Part shown: piece by piece, positions 5,102 through 30,093 of the stretch
How the letters are laid out: every line of letters starts with the position of its first letter
Position numbering within the stretch: position 1 is the stretch's first letter
Source: a virus
Direction: 5' to 3' (one strand)
IMG/VR virus record: IMGVR_UViG_3300036715_003906
Span: 124,001-188,000 of that record
DNA length: 64,000 bases
Notes under the pieces: generated by a model
Told to the model about the DNA's origin: nothing
The model's database searches: none
The model's input: only the letters and a program-made list of their open reading frames with translations
Program-made: the position numbers and the translations under genes

Positions 5102-5725
5102 TCACAAACCGACGAACTGGCGGGGCGTGAGGACCCCGCCCCCGACGTAGGGACCGAAGGCCGAGCGGATGCCCGTGCCGTAGCGAGGCTGCTGGAGGCC
5201 GCGGATGATGTTGACCGTGGCCTTGGCCTTCTCGATTTGCTTGTCGAACTGCTCCTGGGCGCTTCCGGCCGCGGCCTCGTACTTGCTGGCCTTGTCGATG
5301 TCGAGCGATATACCCCCGATGGAATACGAGTTGTGGGCCAGAATGCCGTTGGTGAGAACGAAGTTCTCTGGCCCCGGCACACAGAGGTCGTACATCTCCC
5401 CCGTGTGAGGCACCTCCATGACAAGAGATACCGCCGTGGCACCCGTCGAGCCGTCCTTGACGGTGGTGACCAGCGACCCTGGCGTCAACTTCAACGTCGT
5501 GATGGGGGCGAAGGGGAGGGCTGCAAACAGACTGTGATCCTCGGTCGCCACCACGGAAGCCCCGGTCTCAAGCGTGACCTGAAGGGCTCGCTTATGCGGC
5601 ACCTGATGCTTCATCACGTCCTTGATGGGGAACCACCCTGAGTGCCCAGAAGCGTCCACCGCTTGGGTCGTGAGCAACCCTTGTCGGAAGGCGTCACGAA
5701 TATCACGTCGGGTTTGCTCATCCAT
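5102..5725 (-). CDS. Split intein C-fragment 2 + C-terminal extein of a three-piece virion protein
   Basis: 207 residues. Residues 1-132 are an intein C-part: a HINT core with the block-B-like TEDHSLF (61-67), beta segments, block-F-like GEMYDLCVPGPENFVLTNG and the canonical end LAHN. Residues 133-207, beginning SYSIGGISLDIDKASKYEA, are the C-extein with Ser+1. The matching N-part is the 38-residue tail of the gene at 5846-6619. Splicing in trans would join WVADEF to SYSIGGISL. The protein starts at the ATG at 5725, overlapping the end of an endonuclease remnant (ATGGATGA). IntC 1 and IntC 2 are related (both open with a charged helix, then xxAFxxGxL). No endonuclease domain is inside this ORF. 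Confidence 0.85.
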   Translation of the reverse strand: MDEQTRRDIRDAFRQGLLTTQAVDASGHSGWFPIKDVMKHQVPHKRALQVTLETGASVVATEDHSLFAALPFAPITTLKLTPGSLVTTVKDGSTGATAVSLVMEVPHTGEMYDLCVPGPENFVLTNGILAHNSYSIGGISLDIDKASKYEAAAGSAQEQFDKQIEKAKATVNIIRGLQQPRYGTGIRSAFGPYVGGGVLTPRQFVGL

Positions 5726-5843
5726 GACACGCCTCCAGAATTTCGGTCACAACCGCCGCAAGGTCACCCCTGATACGGTGTTCAGGCACACGAAGCACCC
5801 GCCAACCACGATTCAACAAGTAGGTTGTCTTTTGAAACGGCAC
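5718..5843 (-). pseudogene. Remnant of a Vsr/DUF559-like homing endonuclease
   Basis: Between the N-part and C-part of split intein 2 only 41 codons remain (GTG at 5843, stop overlapping the IntC start). They read VPFQKTTYLLNRGWRVLRVP then EHRIRGDLAAVVTEILEA. This matches the C-terminal beta-alpha part of Vsr/DUF559-type endonucleases (Kxx(Y)LxxxGWxVLRVxEHxI). The catalytic N-terminal part is absent, so it is a decayed copy. Endonuclease genes of this kind are known to sit between the halves of split inteins in fractured genes. Confidence 0.6.
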
Positions 5844-5845
5844 CT

Positions 5846-6619
5846 TCAGGGAGTCTGTGGTTCGCCATCCCCATGCACGATAGCAAAAAGCTCTGCTATG
5901 GGCATGGAAACTCGTCGGCCATCTGGCAGCCCGACCGTGACTTCGGTTTCTGGGGCCACAGAAAATTCATCAGCAACCCAGTTGATCCGGAGGGCGTTGA
6001 GCGCCCAGAACATCGCCCCGGTGAGGAGGAGCGACTTCCAGGACGGGTACTGCGTGTAGAGCTGGTCGAGGCTCTGGAAGGGCGTCATCGGAGGGTAGAG
6101 CGAGATGGTGTTCATCGACTGCTCCAGGTACTCCTTCAGCTCCTCGTCGAGCCAGATGTACCCGAAGACGCGGTTGAACTGCCGGATCGTCTCCTCGTGA
6201 GCCGGGGGCCGAAAGTGGTAGTTCCTGTCGGGACTATTACTGACGACCATCCCCGAGCGATACAGCACGAAGTTGTGCCAATCTTCCGCCGTCAGGTCGT
6301 ACATATACTGCCGAGAGGGTAGTCGCTCGACCCCCAAAACAGAGACGGCAGATTCGACCCCGGCCACGGTACTACCGGTGGCAAGCTGTTCCGTTTCGAC
6401 CTTGCTTGTGGGGGTCACAAACACACGATGCCCCCCTGTGAGCACAGAAGACCCTTGTGGGGTAGTCACCCGAAGGATCGTCTCCGGGCCAACCTCCGCA
6501 CGGTGAACGTGAACGACCCTCTTCCACTCCGCTTGCCCGAGAGGAGAGAGGGACCGAACCTTCAACGTACCCCGCTTGAAGGCTGCTCGAAGCCGATTTT
6601 GCTGGTCAAGGGTCAACAT
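5846..6619 (-). CDS. Middle piece: IntC 1 + middle extein + IntN 2
   Basis: 257 residues from ATG 6619 (GGAGAGAG six bases upstream). Residues 1-128 are the C-part of split intein 1 with TGGHRVF (block B), QYMYDLTAEDWHNFVLYRSG (block F) and end VVSN, with Ser instead of the usual penultimate His. Residues 129-219 are extein, from SPDRNYHFRPPAHEETIRQF to NALRINWVADEF. Residues 220-257 begin SVAPETEVTVGLPDGRRVSM and form the N-part of split intein 2 with Ser1. The fragment is thus intein product at both ends and must be spliced twice. Predicted final joins are LRDN-SPDR upstream and ADEF-SYSI downstream. Confidence 0.85.
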   Translation of the reverse strand: MLTLDQQNRLRAAFKRGTLKVRSLSPLGQAEWKRVVHVHRAEVGPETILRVTTPQGSSVLTGGHRVFVTPTSKVETEQLATGSTVAGVESAVSVLGVERLPSRQYMYDLTAEDWHNFVLYRSGMVVSNSPDRNYHFRPPAHEETIRQFNRVFGYIWLDEELKEYLEQSMNTISLYPPMTPFQSLDQLYTQYPSWKSLLLTGAMFWALNALRINWVADEFSVAPETEVTVGLPDGRRVSMPIAELFAIVHGDGEPQTP

Positions 6620-7162
6620 GAACGTCTCTCTCCGTCCGGACGATGAAGTCCCACCCCATGCGGGTGGCCTAGGAAGAAGCTGCCTGAAGTCGTCGTTGTA
6701 CCTTGTCGTCAGCAGGCAGCCCGAGAACCCAACTAGCTTTGACCTCGATGAGCGCCAACGTACCCGAGAGGCCCTACCCTCTGGACGTTGAGCAGCAAGA
6801 CGAAGAACCTCACGCTCTTCGGCTGAACGAATACGTCCGCGATGGAAGTCGAACGCACCAGAAGCCCAAGCATCCCGCATTCGATCCGACAACCACGGTT
6901 TCGTCCTCCCCCTACCCGCTTGTCCCACAGCAACCGCATTTGCGGTCCGGTTCGCCCGTGATGCGGCATTCCCGGTCGCTTGAGTCAACCGTTGAATGGC
7001 GGCGAGGGATAGGCCCGTCATGGCCTTCCTCCGACCCCAAGTGGCCCCTGCTGCGTGAAGCTCAGTCACCACAGCGACCCGTTTTTCCTGCACCCCTGGA
7101 GGGGGTCGCCCTGATTTGCTGAAGGATACCCACGAAATTCCGTGTTTCGCCAGCAGGGACAC
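6620..7162 (-). pseudogene. Degenerate homing-endonuclease gene between halves of split intein 1
   Basis: This 543-base stretch starts with GTG five bases after the IntN 1 stop and runs in frame into IntC 1. The first about 130 codons look like the DNA-binding part of a fractured-gene endonuclease: GLSLAAIQRLTQATG (helix-turn-helix-like), then KPWLSDRMRDAWASGAFDFH and RSAEEREVL. A recognisable nuclease end, LALIEVKASWVLGLPADDKV followed by QRRLQAASS and a stop at 6669, is in another frame (about 6669-6760). A TAG lies just upstream in that frame, and the central catalytic part seems deleted. I read it as a frameshifted, internally deleted remnant; a single-base error cannot restore a full-length nuclease. 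Confidence 0.6.
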
Positions 7163-7166
7163 CCGA

Positions 7167-7664
7167 TCAGGGTGTGGGTTGCAGGGCTTCCCAGAGAGCC
7201 CGGATAGAAACTACCATTTTCTCTCCGTCCACGTCAAGCTCGACCTCTTCCTCTTCCCCGAGGCAGTTGTCCCGGAGGAGCGTCCGCAGCCGGTGGATGA
7301 GGTCCACTTCGTTCGGGGTGAAGAGGAGCGGGGCCTGCGAACCCGACACCACCTGATCGATGACCTCGAACTCCTGCACCACCTGCTGGAGCTGCCCCCC
7401 GACCAGCTCCCGGAAGGACCACCGCACGCGGTAGAGCCCGAGGTTGGCGTCGAGGGGGATCACGATGCTCGCGTAGTATTCCCCGAGGGCGGGGTTCGCC
7501 GGCACGCGGGCAGGGTTCCCCACCGGGGCCTCCAGACCCGTCGTCACGTCGGCGATGGCGTAGCTGATCTCGGCGGCATTGACCGGGAGGTCCGCCGCGT
7601 TGGCCAGGTAGATGTGCAGGTCCTGGCGGCCGAGCTGCTGCCCGCGGAAGAACGCGACGCCCAT
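7167..7664 (-). CDS. N-terminal extein of the three-piece virion protein + split intein N-fragment 1
   Basis: 165 residues. Residues 1-133 are a beta-rich virion domain (GEYYASIVIPLDANLGLYRV followed by RWSF, an Ig-like pattern also visible in the C-terminal part of the 20-residue-repeat protein next door), then a helix ending IHRLRTLLRDN. Residues 134-165 start with Cys and read CLGEEEEVELDVDGEKMVVS then IRALWEALQPTP: intein block A with C1, the ..EV..xDG turn and an I..LW..L helix. This length is typical of atypically split inteins (AceL-TerL type, IntN about 25-35 residues). The C-part is the start of the next gene downstream. Confidence 0.85.
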   Translation of the reverse strand: MGVAFFRGQQLGRQDLHIYLANAADLPVNAAEISYAIADVTTGLEAPVGNPARVPANPALGEYYASIVIPLDANLGLYRVRWSFRELVGGQLQQVVQEFEVIDQVVSGSQAPLLFTPNEVDLIHRLRTLLRDNCLGEEEEVELDVDGEKMVVSIRALWEALQPTP

Positions 7665-7667
7665 GGC

Positions 7668-8225
7668 TCAGTTCATCCAGGTGCTGTCGACGTGGTGCTC
7701 GCCCTTCAGCGTCTTGCTGATCTGGCGGACCCACGTCTCGACCTCCGCCGCGAACCCGAAGGTCTGCTCGGCCTGGAGTACCTTGCCGCGCGTGTCCTTC
7801 GGGCGGAAGTGGTCCACCTCGCTCGACGACCACTGTCGGAGGGCGTTCGACAGCATCGTGATCGCCCCCTCCCGTTGCGCCTTCTCCTCGCCACGGAAAC
7901 CCTTGCCGATAGCCGACCTGTACTCCTTGACGAGCTTCTCCCCCGCCGCCGCGGCCTTCTCCCCCAGGTCATGGATGTCCGCGTAGGCCACGTCAAACTG
8001 CTTCTGGACCTTGGCGCCGCCCTTGCCCTCCAGCTTCTTGCTGAGGTCGTTCACCTCGGCGAGCGCTTTCTTGAGGTCCTTGCCGCGTGCCTCGGACTCC
8101 TTGGCCGCGTGGTCGGCTGCCGCCGGCTTGACCTCGGACTTCCCACCCACGGGAGTCTTCTCCTTGGCTGTGAGGTCCAGGGCGATGAGGGTGCGAACCA
8201 GCAGACGATGCGCGATCAGGGTCAT
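7668..8225 (-). CDS. Helical/coiled hypothetical virion protein
   Basis: 185 residues from ATG 8225 (GGGGG just upstream); the upstream in-frame extension is non-coding in character. The N-terminus MTLIAHRLLVRTLIALDLTA is hydrophobic, followed by a Lys/Ala/Glu-rich coiled segment (DLKKALAEVNDLSKKLEGKG) and a C-terminal helical part. The stop is three bases before the N-extein gene. No family recognised; a small virion or scaffold-like protein is likely. Confidence 0.65.
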   Translation of the reverse strand: MTLIAHRLLVRTLIALDLTAKEKTPVGGKSEVKPAAADHAAKESEARGKDLKKALAEVNDLSKKLEGKGGAKVQKQFDVAYADIHDLGEKAAAAGEKLVKEYRSAIGKGFRGEEKAQREGAITMLSNALRQWSSSEVDHFRPKDTRGKVLQAEQTFGFAAEVETWVRQISKTLKGEHHVDSTWMN

Positions 8226-8248
8226 CCCCCGGAGTCCTGACAAGAACT

Positions 8249-10363
8249 CTAAGAACCCCAGCCGTAGACCCGGCAGCGCCCCACCGGGTGACAGCCGGCG
8301 CGGGCCACGGCATCCTGCACCCGGAAGAGCTGCTCCGCCGCCTCGACCCCGGAGCACGGGGTACGGCGCCAGGACCAGACCACGACCCAGGCCCCCGGCT
8401 GACCGCACTCCCCGACCACCCCCGCGACGTGGTAGCAGCCCAGATCATCCTGAACCGGGGCACGAACCGCAGGCCCGATGAGCTGGCGCGTGCCGTCCGC
8501 CCGGACCTGGTAGAGCGCGTAGGAGAGCCACACAGGGGCCACAGGAGCCCCCGTGGCGTCGGTGAGGCACAAGGCCAGGTCTCCCGGCCCGAAGATCCCG
8601 CCCCACCCGAAGGGAGGCCCGGGGCACACCGGGGGGAGAACAGGCTGAAGAGGCCGGACCACCTCGACGTTGGCGACAAGGACGCCCACCCCCACCAGGG
8701 CCTCGGGGAAGTACCCGTAGAAGAACCCGGCCCCCGCGGCGTGACCTGCAACGAAGTGGAGGACACGGGGAGCGCCGTCGAGGACACTGTCCCCCGTGAT
8801 CTGCCCCGACCCCAGGAGCGGGGGCATGGCCAGAATGCCCTCCCCGAACACGTACCCCGAGGACAGGTACAGCTCCGCCGATGTCTTGATAGCTGCGAAC
8901 CCGAAGGTCTCCGCACTGAACCCCCCCTGCCCCAGCACGATCCTCGTCGTGAACGGGACCCCCAGAGCGGCCTCGCTCGGAATCCCCACGGCCCCCGCGA
9001 TGATGTCGATGTGCGCCGCCGGAGTCCCGACCGCCTCCTCACTGGGAACCCCCACGGGCCCCAGCAAGAAGGCGAGCGTCTCCAGGCCGAAGGCTTCCGC
9101 GCGGAGAGCCCCCTGACCGAAGAAGGTCATGTCAAGACGCCCGAGGCCGAAGGCTTCCGCGCTCGTGACGCCCACAGGGAGCCCGACCCGGATGGCCAGA
9201 GGCACCCCGAACGCGGCTCCTCCGGGAATCCCCGAGGGGCCCACCACGAAGGCCGAGAACGACGACCCGAAGGTCTCCGCGCTGACCGCGCCCGTGCCCC
9301 GCACCATCAAGCGCTCGAAGCCGACCCCGAAGGCTTGCCCGCTCAGCACCCCCTGCCCGAGCGGCACGGTGACCTGAAGGGGAATCCCTACCGCAGCCGC
9401 ACTCCCGACCCCCGTCGCAACCAGGCCGAGACGGATGGCCCCGAGGCCGCTCGTGAAGGCCGAGGGGGCCCCCTGGCCAAAGACCGTGAGCTGCTCGGTC
9501 GCCTGCCCCGACGCAAAGGCCCCAGGGATACCCGTGGGGAGCAGGTTGGCCGAGACCAGGGGCGTCCCAAGGGCGAGCCCCGATGGCACCCCCGACCCCA
9601 GAAGGGTGAGGCGCTCCGTGGCTGCCCCAGAGACAAAGGTACTCGCGGCGCCTTGCCCAAGAGGGAACAGCCTCTGGGTAGCGACACCGAAGGCTTGCGC
9701 CGGTGTCGCCCCGGGCGGGGACAGGTCCCGGCCCACCACGGCCTGGCCCGAGGCAAAGGCGCTTCCGGCCCCCGACCCGAAGACGGTGAGCTGCTCCGTG
9801 GCCGCACCGGCGGTGACGGCGCTCGCCGTCCCTTGGCCGAGAGGGATGAACCTCTGGGTCGCTGCCCCGAAGGCTTGCGCCGACAGCACCCCGGAGGGGG
9901 AGGCCACACGAACCGCGGTCGCCTGGCCCGAGGCAAAGGCACTCCCGGCCCCCTGCCCCAGTGCGCTACAGACCTCGGTCGCCGTCCCGGAAACGAACCC
10001 CGAGAGGACCCCCTGGGGCCCGAGGGCGCGCACGACGGTCGGGGTGCCGGCCGCCTGGGCCGAGGGCACCCCCGTGCCGAGCACCGTGAGCCTCTCGGTT
10101 GCGGCCCCGAAGGCTCCCGCACTGGGGGCCCCGGAGACCCGAGCGAGTCGGGTCGCCGAGGGCTGCCCGAAGGCCCCTCCGCTCGGGACACCCGCCCCGA
10201 GGACCGTGAGCCTCTCGGTTGCGGTGCCGAACGACTCCCCGCCCGCGACCCCGACGGCAAGGGGGATCAGGGCCACCGCGGCCTGACCAAAGGCCACGGC
10301 CGCCGCCACGCCCCGGGCGGCGAACGTGGTCGCTTCCGACAGGTCGAAGAGTAGGCGGCTCAT
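8249..10363 (-). CDS. Tail-fibre-like protein with about 22 repeats of 20 residues
   Basis: 704 residues. From about residue 17 to 460 the protein is a run of 20-residue repeats with consensus GVPSAxAFGxATxRLxxLGQ (for example GAPSAGAFGAATERLTVLGT, GVLSAQAFGAATQRFIPLGQ). Only one copy near the end gains two residues. Gly at 1 and 9 and small residues at 4-7 suggest a beta-solenoid or triple-stranded fibre. The last about 200 residues are a globular Cys-containing end with VWLSYALYQVRADGTRQLIG and WVVVWSWRR, an Ig-like strand pattern also seen in the N-extein protein at 7167-7664. No signal peptide. Most likely a tail fibre or capsid appendage. Confidence 0.8.
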   Translation of the reverse strand: MSRLLFDLSEATTFAARGVAAAVAFGQAAVALIPLAVGVAGGESFGTATERLTVLGAGVPSGGAFGQPSATRLARVSGAPSAGAFGAATERLTVLGTGVPSAQAAGTPTVVRALGPQGVLSGFVSGTATEVCSALGQGAGSAFASGQATAVRVASPSGVLSAQAFGAATQRFIPLGQGTASAVTAGAATEQLTVFGSGAGSAFASGQAVVGRDLSPPGATPAQAFGVATQRLFPLGQGAASTFVSGAATERLTLLGSGVPSGLALGTPLVSANLLPTGIPGAFASGQATEQLTVFGQGAPSAFTSGLGAIRLGLVATGVGSAAAVGIPLQVTVPLGQGVLSGQAFGVGFERLMVRGTGAVSAETFGSSFSAFVVGPSGIPGGAAFGVPLAIRVGLPVGVTSAEAFGLGRLDMTFFGQGALRAEAFGLETLAFLLGPVGVPSEEAVGTPAAHIDIIAGAVGIPSEAALGVPFTTRIVLGQGGFSAETFGFAAIKTSAELYLSSGYVFGEGILAMPPLLGSGQITGDSVLDGAPRVLHFVAGHAAGAGFFYGYFPEALVGVGVLVANVEVVRPLQPVLPPVCPGPPFGWGGIFGPGDLALCLTDATGAPVAPVWLSYALYQVRADGTRQLIGPAVRAPVQDDLGCYHVAGVVGECGQPGAWVVVWSWRRTPCSGVEAAEQLFRVQDAVARAGCHPVGRCRVYGWGS
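8800..10320 (-). repeat. 60-nt coding repeat array (20-residue units)
   Basis: The array underlying the fibre protein: about 22 units of 60 bases, identical in length but diverged in sequence, so it is old rather than freshly expanded. Copies sharing GTGAGCCTCTCGGTTGCGG on the plus strand (near 10086 and 10206) are the most similar. Confidence 0.75.
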
Positions 10364-27327: not shown

Positions 27328-30093
27328 TCAGGCTCCGTTCCTCGCCATTCGCGGCGTGAGAGATGGATTATTGGTGCCCAGAGCATAAAGCCGACCCTTG
27401 TCGAGAAGGGTCTCCTGCTCCGAGGGCGTCAGGTTACGTCCGATGAGGGTGCGACAGGCCGTGACAAAGGCCGTGTCGTCGGGGTACGACGTCACGGAAC
27501 CTGCCGCGAGGACAGCACGATAGAGGCGGCTCTCGCCCGCCTGCGTGATCCGCTTGCTCGACTCCAGGAAGCGAGCCACCGCCAGTACCTCGGGGCCCGT
27601 GAGGCACCCCGCGGAACGTACAGCTTGCCATCCACCGGACTTGTAATGGATGAGGCCGAGCAGGACGTTCAGGGTACGTCCATGATCACGCCCCGTGGCG
27701 ACATGGACACGGTGCGCGAGGAGGCGCCACGAGGGATACCGGAGCGCTTCCTTGAGGAGCGTATTGTTCCGGTTCTCGTTCGGCCGAGGTCCAGGTTCGG
27801 GCTTCATCTCCTCCCGGACCTTGTCGACCGCACGTTGACGCAGGGCGTCCGCCAGCTCGTCCACGGCCTTGCTGGCCGGGTCCCCGGTGGGGGCAGGAGC
27901 GGGCTTCTTGTCCATCCCGTCGTCGAACCCCTGGCCCTGCTGTCCGGGCTGCCCCTGCTGCCCCTGGGCCGCAGGGAAGGAGGCAGCCTTGCCCATGGCG
28001 CCGGTGAGCATGACCCGGGGCCCACCCGAGAAGGCGATGCTCATCTTGCGGCCGAGGTCAGCGACCTCCTCGGGGTTCAGGATGTCCCGGAGGACGGCAC
28101 CCTCGAAGGCGGGGTTGGCGACCCACGACGCCTCGATGAACTTGACCGACCCGGGCTCGGCCAGGACGTGCCCGCACAGCTCGGCGATCTTCCGCTTGCG
28201 ACCCAGGGCATCGACGAACTCGTTGCCCTTGAAGTAGTGGATATGGTTGCAGAGCTGGGTCTCGTCGTAGGCGACGTTGCCGCAGGCCGTGCAGATCGTG
28301 AACTCGACCTGGCAGTTGGAGACCCCGAAGCCATGCACCTGATACGAGTGGTCTTCCTCGACCTCGATGTCGTGGACGAAGCCCTCGTACACGAAGGACT
28401 CGATGCGGGTGATCGGGAAGATGACCTTGTCGTCGAGTGCCCGGAGATGCGGGTGCTTTTTGCGAGAACCCTCGCGTGGGGACTTGTCGGACACCCCCAT
28501 CAACATCGCCGAAGACGATTGAGGGAAGTAGATGTTGAAGGCCGCGAGCTTGCCCGTCTCGTCGTGACGAAGTGCCTGCCCGTTCACCACGGCCTCGGCG
28601 AAAGTCACCGTTCGGCCCCCAAACACGCAGTCTGCCCACACCGGGATGCCGCCTCGTACCGCCAGCGTATGAAGCTGGCACATGAGGTCGTAGGAGGTGG
28701 TCGTACCCACCGAGTGCCCGCCGCTGTGCTTGTGACCGTCCCCGTTGAGCCAAGCCCCAAGCAAATGCGCCTGGGATTCGACTGACCACTGCATGGCCTC
28801 GGGGCTCAGACGCTTTTGGTGGGAGTACTCACCCCCATGCTGCTTGAACCAAGCGGCGATGCCCTTCCCCGAGACGTGTACCGTTGCCGTGTTACGGTCT
28901 TCACGGTCCTGTACCCAAGGGGCACAACCGGGGAACTCCTCGCGAAGAAGCCCAACAACCTCTTCAACGAAGGTCTCCTTCTCAGCCAAGGAGAAGTTGA
29001 ACTGCACCTCGGACGGCACACCCTTGCTCTTGATGAAGCTGCCTTCGGCCAGGAAGTACCCGAGGAGCCGAGCCTTGGCGGACCCTGGGTCACCGATCAC
29101 ATCAGAGTCGAGCTTCGGGAAGACCACATAGTCCCCCACTCGCAATTCGTCGGCACGAACCTTCTCGACCTTGAGGCTCTGGATCTCCGTGAGCTTCTCC
29201 TGGCGAGCCTTGTATTCGTCGAGGGAGTAGCTGCCGTTCGGGTTGAGCACACGCTTGTCATGACCCCCCTTGAACCGCTTGGTCATCCGACGAACGGGGT
29301 CAGCATCCTTCGTCGAAAGAGCCTCCCCACACCCACACCCGCAAACAGACGCCGGGCGGAGGACGAAGAACGGGTGTGTGCCTGTGGCCTCGACGGCATC
29401 CGGCACCCCCTTGACCTTGATCCGTCGCATCTGCCAGCGACCACCACGGATCTGCTGGTTCAGCACCTCGCGAGCCCTGCCCTTGTGGGTCAGAACCATC
29501 GCACCGGGTCGAACCTCTTCGATGGGGAGACGAGTGCCGTCGGCCATCGTGACGGGAGTCCCCGGGAGGAAACAGCCCATGCTGAGGGTCTTCAGCTCCC
29601 GCCGCTGGATCGAGGAGATCAGGGGGCGGAACTTCCGGGCCGTCGCGATCAGGATGTCGATGTAGATCGAGTCCCCGATGTCCCGGCTGGCGGCGTCCAG
29701 GATCTTGCCCTTGCTCAGCTCGGGGATCTGGACGTGCTCGACGTAGTTCTCCCCGCCGATGAAGGTCTTGAAGCACGCGAGGAGCAGCTTGCGCTCCCAG
29801 CAGTCGTTGTTGTTGTTGACGTACTTGGACGTCGCGGGCGTCACCAGCCAGTCGGGGTAGCGCCGGTCGACCTCGAAGCCGTCCACCATCTGACGACCGA
29901 CCGGCTCCGGGGACACCTCCGTGTCCACCGAAGCGACGATCGTGCAGTGCGTGAGCATGAACTCACTGGGGTCGTACTGGTCGAGTACGATCCGGGAGGC
30001 TTGCTTGTTCCCGTGGACCCGGAGGTTCTCCCACCCGGCCGACGAGATGTCGGGCTTGACAATGGTCGCGTTGGCAAACTTACGGAAGGCCAT
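27328..30093 (-). CDS. Prohead protease interrupted by an intein
   Basis: 921 codons, of which 174-593 are an intein; the spliced protein would be 501 residues. N-extein: EFMLTHCTIVASVD supplies the likely catalytic His49, and RRELKTLSMG (S171) the catalytic Ser. C-extein resumes CQVEFTICTACGNVAYDETQ, then IHYFKGNEFVDALGRKRKIA and FIEASWVANPAFEGAVLRDI, a pattern of phage prohead proteases with a Cys-rich insert. A Gln/Pro linker follows, then an extra helical C-terminal domain of about 140 residues (LLKEALRYPSWRLLAHRVHV). It lies between the portal-side genes and the scaffold/capsid genes, as expected. Cleaves scaffold and capsid proteins during maturation. Confidence 0.8.
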   Translation of the reverse strand: MAFRKFANATIVKPDISSAGWENLRVHGNKQASRIVLDQYDPSEFMLTHCTIVASVDTEVSPEPVGRQMVDGFEVDRRYPDWLVTPATSKYVNNNNDCWERKLLLACFKTFIGGENYVEHVQIPELSKGKILDAASRDIGDSIYIDILIATARKFRPLISSIQRRELKTLSMGCFLPGTPVTMADGTRLPIEEVRPGAMVLTHKGRAREVLNQQIRGGRWQMRRIKVKGVPDAVEATGTHPFFVLRPASVCGCGCGEALSTKDADPVRRMTKRFKGGHDKRVLNPNGSYSLDEYKARQEKLTEIQSLKVEKVRADELRVGDYVVFPKLDSDVIGDPGSAKARLLGYFLAEGSFIKSKGVPSEVQFNFSLAEKETFVEEVVGLLREEFPGCAPWVQDREDRNTATVHVSGKGIAAWFKQHGGEYSHQKRLSPEAMQWSVESQAHLLGAWLNGDGHKHSGGHSVGTTTSYDLMCQLHTLAVRGGIPVWADCVFGGRTVTFAEAVVNGQALRHDETGKLAAFNIYFPQSSSAMLMGVSDKSPREGSRKKHPHLRALDDKVIFPITRIESFVYEGFVHDIEVEEDHSYQVHGFGVSNCQVEFTICTACGNVAYDETQLCNHIHYFKGNEFVDALGRKRKIAELCGHVLAEPGSVKFIEASWVANPAFEGAVLRDILNPEEVADLGRKMSIAFSGGPRVMLTGAMGKAASFPAAQGQQGQPGQQGQGFDDGMDKKPAPAPTGDPASKAVDELADALRQRAVDKVREEMKPEPGPRPNENRNNTLLKEALRYPSWRLLAHRVHVATGRDHGRTLNVLLGLIHYKSGGWQAVRSAGCLTGPEVLAVARFLESSKRITQAGESRLYRAVLAAGSVTSYPDDTAFVTACRTLIGRNLTPSEQETLLDKGRLYALGTNNPSLTPRMARNGA
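28315..29574 (-). mobile_element. Intein in the prohead protease (420 residues, LAGLIDADG type)
   Basis: Starts CFLPGTPVTMADGTRLPIEE (block A, Cys1), has TGTHPFFVL (block B), two dodecapeptide-like motifs LLGYFLAEGSF and LLGAWLNGDGH of a LAGLIDADG endonuclease, and GFVHDIEVEEDHSYQVHGFG (block F) ending VSN before Cys+1. The penultimate residue is Ser instead of His. Inserted between SMG and C of the protease active-site segment. The second motif keeps an acidic residue; whether the nuclease is active is not known. Confidence 0.9.

Follow-up and report, generated by a model that had tools for sequence, protein, structure and literature searches.

A phage gene in three pieces, probably rejoined at the protein level by two consecutive split inteins

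The fractured genes described by Dassa et al. in 2009 reportedly carry one break per gene and encode enzymes of DNA metabolism, and the dnaE gene of Trichodesmium erythraeum, studied by Liu and Yang in 2003, is said to contain several inteins of which only one is split. Fractured genes, atypically split inteins and the split inteins of phages are already known (PMC6892783, PMC10189870), and in an engineered form of tandem trans-splicing two orthogonal split inteins link three segments (PMC12707363, 2025). Here we analyse a locus at positions 5,102 to 7,664 of a 64,000-nucleotide stretch of viral DNA (IMG/VR record IMGVR_UViG_3300036715_003906, positions 124,001 to 188,000), the whole of which we refer to as the window. 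Our reading of this locus, to which we give a probability of about 0.9 on sequence grounds, is that one 299-residue phage protein is made from three polypeptides by two trans-splicing events. In the open literature we came across no natural protein described as requiring two split inteins, a search that did not extend to the founding paper of 2009 or to much of the subscription literature. What appears to be new is that two split inteins occur in series in one gene, that they do so recurrently, and that the gene, found in jumbo phages, probably encodes a head-tail connector.

Three minus-strand open reading frames (ORFs) with complementary intein ends lie at 7167-7664, 5846-6619 and 5102-5725 of the window, which belongs to a 251-kb virus record. 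The first encodes the N-terminal extein (N-extein) followed by an N-terminal intein half (IntN1); the second encodes the corresponding C-terminal half (IntC1), the middle extein (M-extein) and a further N-terminal half (IntN2); and the third encodes IntC2 and the C-terminal extein (C-extein). The ORF positions, intein ends and piece lengths of the initial annotation (133+32, 128+91+38 and 132+75 residues) proved exact to the residue, the ends reading CLGEEEE...QPTP, ...MVVSN-SPDRNYHF, ...VADEF-SVAPETE...PQTP and ...GILAHN-SYSIGG (hyphens mark intein boundaries). The features are as follows.

7266..7664, minus strand: N-extein, residues 1-133 of the mature protein, from reading and alignment; modelled in a homologue as a beta-sandwich with the first helix
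7170..7265, minus strand: IntN1, 32 aa, Cys1, CLGEEEEVELDVDGEKMVVSIRALWEALQPTP; homologues at the same site in >20 loci, dN/dS 0.06-0.21
6236..6619, minus strand: IntC1, 128 aa, ending VVSN and followed by Ser+1; Pfam match, and fold match to solved inteins
5963..6235, minus strand: M-extein, residues 134-224, from reading and alignment
5849..5962, minus strand: IntN2, 38 aa, Ser1, SVAPETEVTVGLPDGRRVSMPIAELFAIVHGDGEPQTP; family profile, and homologues at the same site
5330..5725, minus strand: IntC2, 132 aa, ending LAHN and followed by Ser+1; Pfam match
5105..5329, minus strand: C-extein, residues 225-299, from reading and alignment
6630..6633, minus strand: putative Shine-Dalgarno-like GGAG upstream of the middle piece, read from the sequence
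5732..5736, minus strand: putative Shine-Dalgarno-like GGAGG upstream of the C-terminal piece, read from the sequence

At each of the two gaps (545 and 120 bp) a stop codon closes the IntN half and the IntC half has an ATG of its own, and thus neither split is a contiguous intein that has simply been misread. The three polypeptides would be translated separately, with the IntN1 that ends the first pairing with the IntC1 that opens the second, and the IntN2 that ends the second pairing with the IntC2 that opens the third. Each pair would fold as a single Hint (intein) domain, excise itself and ligate the flanking exteins, so that two trans-splicing events would yield the complete protein with no residues added.

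The exteins form a continuous protein in relatives. A search of viral contigs with the joined 299 residues returned 18 loci, many of which cover residues 1-299 unbroken, and alignment of eight uninterrupted homologues with the joined window protein shows no gap at either junction. The junction motifs are highly conserved, reading LLRD[N/Q]-NPD..Y.FRPP at site 1 and INWVADEF-DYSIGG at site 2; a wider alignment of uninterrupted forms comprises 52 sequences, and an AlphaFold2 model of one uninterrupted homologue (predicted local distance difference test score, pLDDT, 75) places each site in a loop that connects helices. Since the exteins join seamlessly in uninterrupted homologues, a chance arrangement is excluded. 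The proposal of the initial annotation, that one protein arises from three pieces through two serial split inteins, survives this alignment, as continuous homologues span both junctions and each intein is found alone in other relatives.

The halves themselves are recognizable as inteins. The Pfam family Intein_splicing (PF14890) matches IntC1 at 4e-6 and IntC2 at 1.3e-7, with scores (27 and 32 bits) under the curated cut-off of 35.8, as expected of fragments; the relatives L103, L118, L122 and L020 exceed this cut-off (L numbers are our labels for related loci). The short IntN pieces alone matched no Pfam family; relatives carry homologous IntN pieces at identical positions of the extein, more than 20 of them at site 1 and about 18 at site 2. 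The residues needed for splicing are present at site 1 (C1, TGGH in block B, a VSN end and S+1) and at site 2 (S1, TEDH in block B, an HN end and S+1). When the middle piece was modelled with AlphaFold2, its fold matched inteins of solved structure in the Protein Data Bank (PDB), including VidaL, gp41-1 and NrdJ-1 (best E 1.4e-5), with TM scores of 0.5-0.65 by target length for most. Purifying selection acts on the intein pieces (dN/dS, the ratio of non-synonymous to synonymous substitution, 0.06-0.27 where synonymous sites are unsaturated), clearly so for IntN1 and IntC1, the exception being the short IntN2 in the comparison of the window with L101 (0.65). IntC1 and IntC2 are 31.6% identical (about 1e-10), which supports the earlier suggestion that the two inteins share an origin, yet they belong to separate site-specific lineages (support 100/100).

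The split inteins of the window look intact although both of their homing endonucleases (HENs) are dead remnants. The two gaps contain decayed HEN genes, which the first reading of the sequence had not noticed.

6779..7177, minus strand: N-terminal half of the site-1 HEN remnant (TnsA-like HEN family); identity to the intact L016 enzyme about 60%
6609..6764, minus strand: C-terminal fragment of the site-1 HEN remnant, in another frame and with an internal stop; PF08722 match with 1 stop, lacking the LPDGRWILPDF stretch of the nuclease domain
5721..5843, minus strand: site-2 HEN remnant (Vsr/DUF559-like), the last about 41 aa only; 49% identity to the intact HEN of L101, 2e-9

Intact HEN genes lie between the intein halves in L016, L020, L048 and L101, while L015 has a decayed HEN and L021 has short gaps without HENs; the presence of a HEN gene in the gap, as in fractured genes, is therefore seen in relatives and survives in the window only as remnants. 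The site-1 HEN family carries a TnsA-like nuclease domain (PF08722, 2.6e-8 in L016); in L102 an HNH enzyme takes the place of this family, and the site-2 HENs belong to a Vsr/DUF559-like family. The TnsA-like domain is C-terminal in the site-1 HENs of L016 (4728-5693), L020 (6491-7414) and L101 (5088-6026), all three tested against PF08722, and of L124 (2655-3698; by eye). To our knowledge, enzymes of the TnsA type have not been described as homing endonucleases of inteins.

Relatives were collected by searches with extein and intein alignments and then read frame by frame, near-duplicate contigs being counted once. Every state is represented among them: empty, filled at site 1 only, at site 2 only or at both, contiguous or split, and with the HEN intact, decayed or absent. 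Both sites are split in six distinct contigs (the window, L020, L021, L101, L108 and L133/L168), and L103 and L112 combine a split site 1 with a contiguous site 2. Site 1 alone is filled, by a split intein, in L015, L016, L017, L102, L104, L105, L107, L122, L124 (LR745208, a 485-kb uncultured phage), L159, L163, L165, L166 and L171, and site 1 is contiguous in L155, L160 and L164. Site 2 alone is filled by a split intein in L048, L114, L115, L116, L129, L130, L131, L134, L139, L140, L151 and L153, and by a contiguous one in L054, L118, L120 and L149. On the extein tree, six changes or more are needed to account for the double state. Mobility of the elements is also apparent, in that the exteins of L134 and L166 are 89% identical in DNA and yet are filled at site 2 only and at site 1 only, respectively; the site-2 elements of L134 and L168 are 91% identical in DNA and their exteins 75%, a sign of recent horizontal transfer. 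L122 (2363-3739) has a contiguous mini-intein at a third site of the same gene, near the C-terminus (RSSFGPF-...-SGRGVLSP). In the IntC tree, which otherwise separates cleanly by site, it is nested among the site-2 inteins, and this suggests that an intein has jumped from one position of the gene to another. From such intermediates, the origin of the arrangement would lie in independent homing of inteins into two conserved motifs of the gene, followed in the window virus by decay of both HENs, with the two fractures persisting.

Protein splicing requires Ser, Thr or Cys directly after the intein. At site 1 this +1 residue is Ser or Cys in 24/24 scored filled alleles and in 1/60 empty ones (Fisher p=4e-20), and at site 2 it is Ser in 24/24 scored filled alleles and 6/60 empty ones (Fisher p=9e-16), p-values that are indicative only, as they treat related sequences as independent. 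The +1 residue of empty alleles at site 1 is Asn in 47/52 and otherwise Lys, His or Asp, and at site 2 it is mostly Asp. The few empty alleles with Ser (one at site 1, six at site 2) may have lost an intein and kept the scar, or may be targets that were pre-adapted.

In two relatives, each known from a single assembly, the pieces are no longer in order. In L115 the gene for IntC2 and the C-extein lies upstream of the gene for the N-extein, M-extein and IntN2. On the contig of L127, labelled as a Verrucomicrobiota metagenome-assembled genome but probably a phage, an ORF for the N-extein and IntN1 (a 163-aa N piece) occupies 93218-93697 on the minus strand, and one for IntC1 with the M- and C-exteins lies at about 25393 on the plus strand, which places the pieces (L127 and contig G001:C37) about 67 kb apart on opposite strands. 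Read-through, frameshifting and a cis-acting RNA intron are thus all excluded there, and protein trans-splicing can rebuild the product. The site-2 IntN of L115 (5995-7433; SLIGSEEIDIDVDGEIIRCRLDDL...) is closer to the IntN1 than to the IntN2 family (27.5 vs -0.1 bits), and its empty site 1 bears Ser at +1; L115 is possibly a chimera, or may hold the scar of a lost site-1 intein.

These observations bear on the other ways in which the locus might be explained. Sequencing or assembly errors could have introduced frameshifts into two ordinary contiguous inteins: contiguous versions of both exist in relatives, single frameshifts could mimic a split, and the IntC1 frame is open upstream nearly to the IntN1 stop. 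Against this, the split recurs at one position across more than 20 site-1 loci and about 18 site-2 loci, and many of the gaps, which range from 64 to about 950 bp, hold an intact HEN gene in a frame of its own; together with the permuted and dispersed pieces, and with the HEN remnants in the gaps of the window, this makes an artefact extremely improbable. Rejoining of the RNA by a self-splicing intron is another possibility, as group I introns are frequent in phage genes that have HENs in gaps (PMC12363816). However, conserved intein blocks with +1 nucleophiles are encoded on either side of the gaps, exactly where the exteins end, contiguous intein alleles occur at both sites, and a cis-acting RNA intron could not rejoin the distant, opposite-strand pieces of L127; on these grounds, with no Rfam search made, we accord this explanation next to no weight.

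Another view is that the three ORFs are a decaying pseudogene, with splicing lost and the exteins non-functional or serving as separate domains; in its favour, both HENs are dead, the window exteins sit on a fairly long branch (0.44) and IntC2 has diverged fast. Several observations do weigh against assembly by trans-splicing in the window virus. IntC2 evolves rapidly (pN/pS about 0.5, with synonymous sites saturated), which leaves full activity of intein 2 less certain than that of intein 1; the IntN2 region of the middle-piece model is only moderately confident (pLDDT about 70); the 251-kb record holds no intact copy of the split gene, but may be incomplete, so that one could exist elsewhere; and a search with an exact 32-mer across the IntC1/M junction found no near-identical second assembly of the virus, in a set from which near-identical records may be missing. 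Set against decay are that no piece is interrupted by a stop and that Shine-Dalgarno-like sites precede the second and third, that the extein motifs and every junction residue are conserved, that block B and the C-terminal SN/HN motifs are present, that IntN1 and IntC1 are under purifying selection and that there is no other copy in the record, and we consider a pseudogene very unlikely. A further possibility is that one intein alone works or that the pairs cross-react, IntN1 with IntC2 skipping the middle and IntN2 with IntC1 cyclizing the M-extein. The two share a fold as well as an origin, and some split inteins are promiscuous; moreover, the middle polypeptide has the IntC-extein-IntN layout that engineers use for split-intein cyclization. 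The IntN families nevertheless differ clearly: in leave-one-out profile comparisons IntN1 of the window scores 65.9 bits against its own family and 13.8 against the other, and IntN2 49.5 and 13.3. The chemistries also differ (C1 and S1), IntC1 and IntC2 fall in separate clades and conservation of the exteins is that of segments of one full-length protein, all of which makes this possibility unlikely.

If trans-splicing proceeds as we propose, the layout of the middle piece has a further consequence. A cross-reaction would circularize the M-extein or join N to C without the middle, and orthogonality is therefore needed; we infer that selection acts against cross-reaction between the two pairs. 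The earlier assertion that the inteins must not cross-react thus gains from the distinctness of the IntN families, with orthogonality itself a prediction from sequence. Splicing is likewise expected to occur, and efficiently. IntN1 is strongly acidic (-5 to -8) and IntN2 more variable; the IntN2 charge of double- and single-split genomes differs suggestively (Mann-Whitney p=0.056), a comparison that includes the close kin L020 and L021 and that we do not use as evidence. We put at about even the odds that jumbo phages have, as a stable and recurrent gene architecture, natural and obligatory assembly from three polypeptides through two split inteins that are orthogonal to each other, kept after loss of the HENs and under selection against cross-reaction. 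If so, the two intein families would represent a natural evolutionary experiment in split-intein orthogonality.

The locus resembles fractured genes in that a split intein breaks the gene, free-standing HENs occupy the gap in many relatives, the site-2 HEN is Vsr-related and the setting is a phage. It departs from the reported cases in that a single gene, probably a structural one, is broken twice in succession, that the site-1 HEN is TnsA-like (HNH in L102) and that, in the window, both HENs have decayed. As in the T. erythraeum dnaE, one protein can contain a split intein and a further one (compare L103 and L112), but in the window two are split. The short IntN and long IntC pieces are like those of AceL-TerL, GOS-TerL, VidaL and PolB16 OarG, and the Ser1/Ser+1 chemistry of site 2 is that of PolB16 OarG (PMC10189870); unlike these atypically split inteins, two distinct pairs would act on one protein here, and IntC2 retains a Cys (YDLCVP) and is thus not cysteine-free. 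The PolB of jumbo phage MIJ3 also has a natural split intein with an HNH HEN, but its split is single and lies in a DNA polymerase gene (PMC6892783). The order N-IntN1 / IntC1-M-IntN2 / IntC2-C is that of the engineered three-segment design (PMC12707363), here natural and phage-encoded, and phages appear to have reached this laboratory scheme several times. The near-complete evolutionary series (empty, contiguous, split with HEN, split without HEN, permuted and dispersed) makes the origin of split inteins and fragmented genes directly testable. For protein engineering the family is a source of many inteins with a short IntN, of both chemistries next to each other and of natural pairs that are expected to have been forced to avoid reacting with one another; for annotation, it is a reminder that a conserved phage gene which seems missing or truncated may simply be in pieces.

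The 299-residue product is probably a head-tail connector or neck component. Matches to the head-tail connector family PHROG 17327 are weak (0.0034 for the joined protein, 1e-4 for a relative), and among isolate phages a single relative carries an annotation: XOB77762.1, from the 309-kb Tunturiibacter phage Tunturi_5, with 28% identity over 93%, is listed as a head-tail connector and is followed by genes for a minor tail protein, a tail terminator and the tail sheath. The extein sequence had no match in the PDB, and a fold search there gave nothing under 1e-3, with weak Ig-like and baseplate matches; uncharacterized phage proteins, including gp165 of Bacillus phage G, were also returned. The description of the product as a virion protein in the initial annotation has partial support, the annotation evidence being weak, and the product would be part of the virion. 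The N-domain recurs in the upstream neighbour in the window (8249-10363, minus strand), a 704-aa ORF with many short repeats (type GxGVPSGxAFGxAT) and, at its end, a domain akin to the N-extein; this ORF has a match at 1e-19 to a family of minor tail proteins.

Two other features of the window deserve mention. The antisense strand of IntN1 (about 7176-7210, plus strand, within an ORF at 7116-8240) encodes SPDRNYHF, the first 8 residues of the M-extein; this is not conserved in relatives and we take it as coincidence. A 921-aa ORF at 27328-30093 (minus strand) carries a contiguous intein (CFLPGTP... to ...HGFGVSN-C) with a LAGLIDADG-like stretch, LLGAWLNGDGHK, and weak matches to Hom_end_hint and Hint_2. 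The extein is weakly similar to a family of head maturation proteases, and this second intein-invaded gene of the phage is probably also structural.

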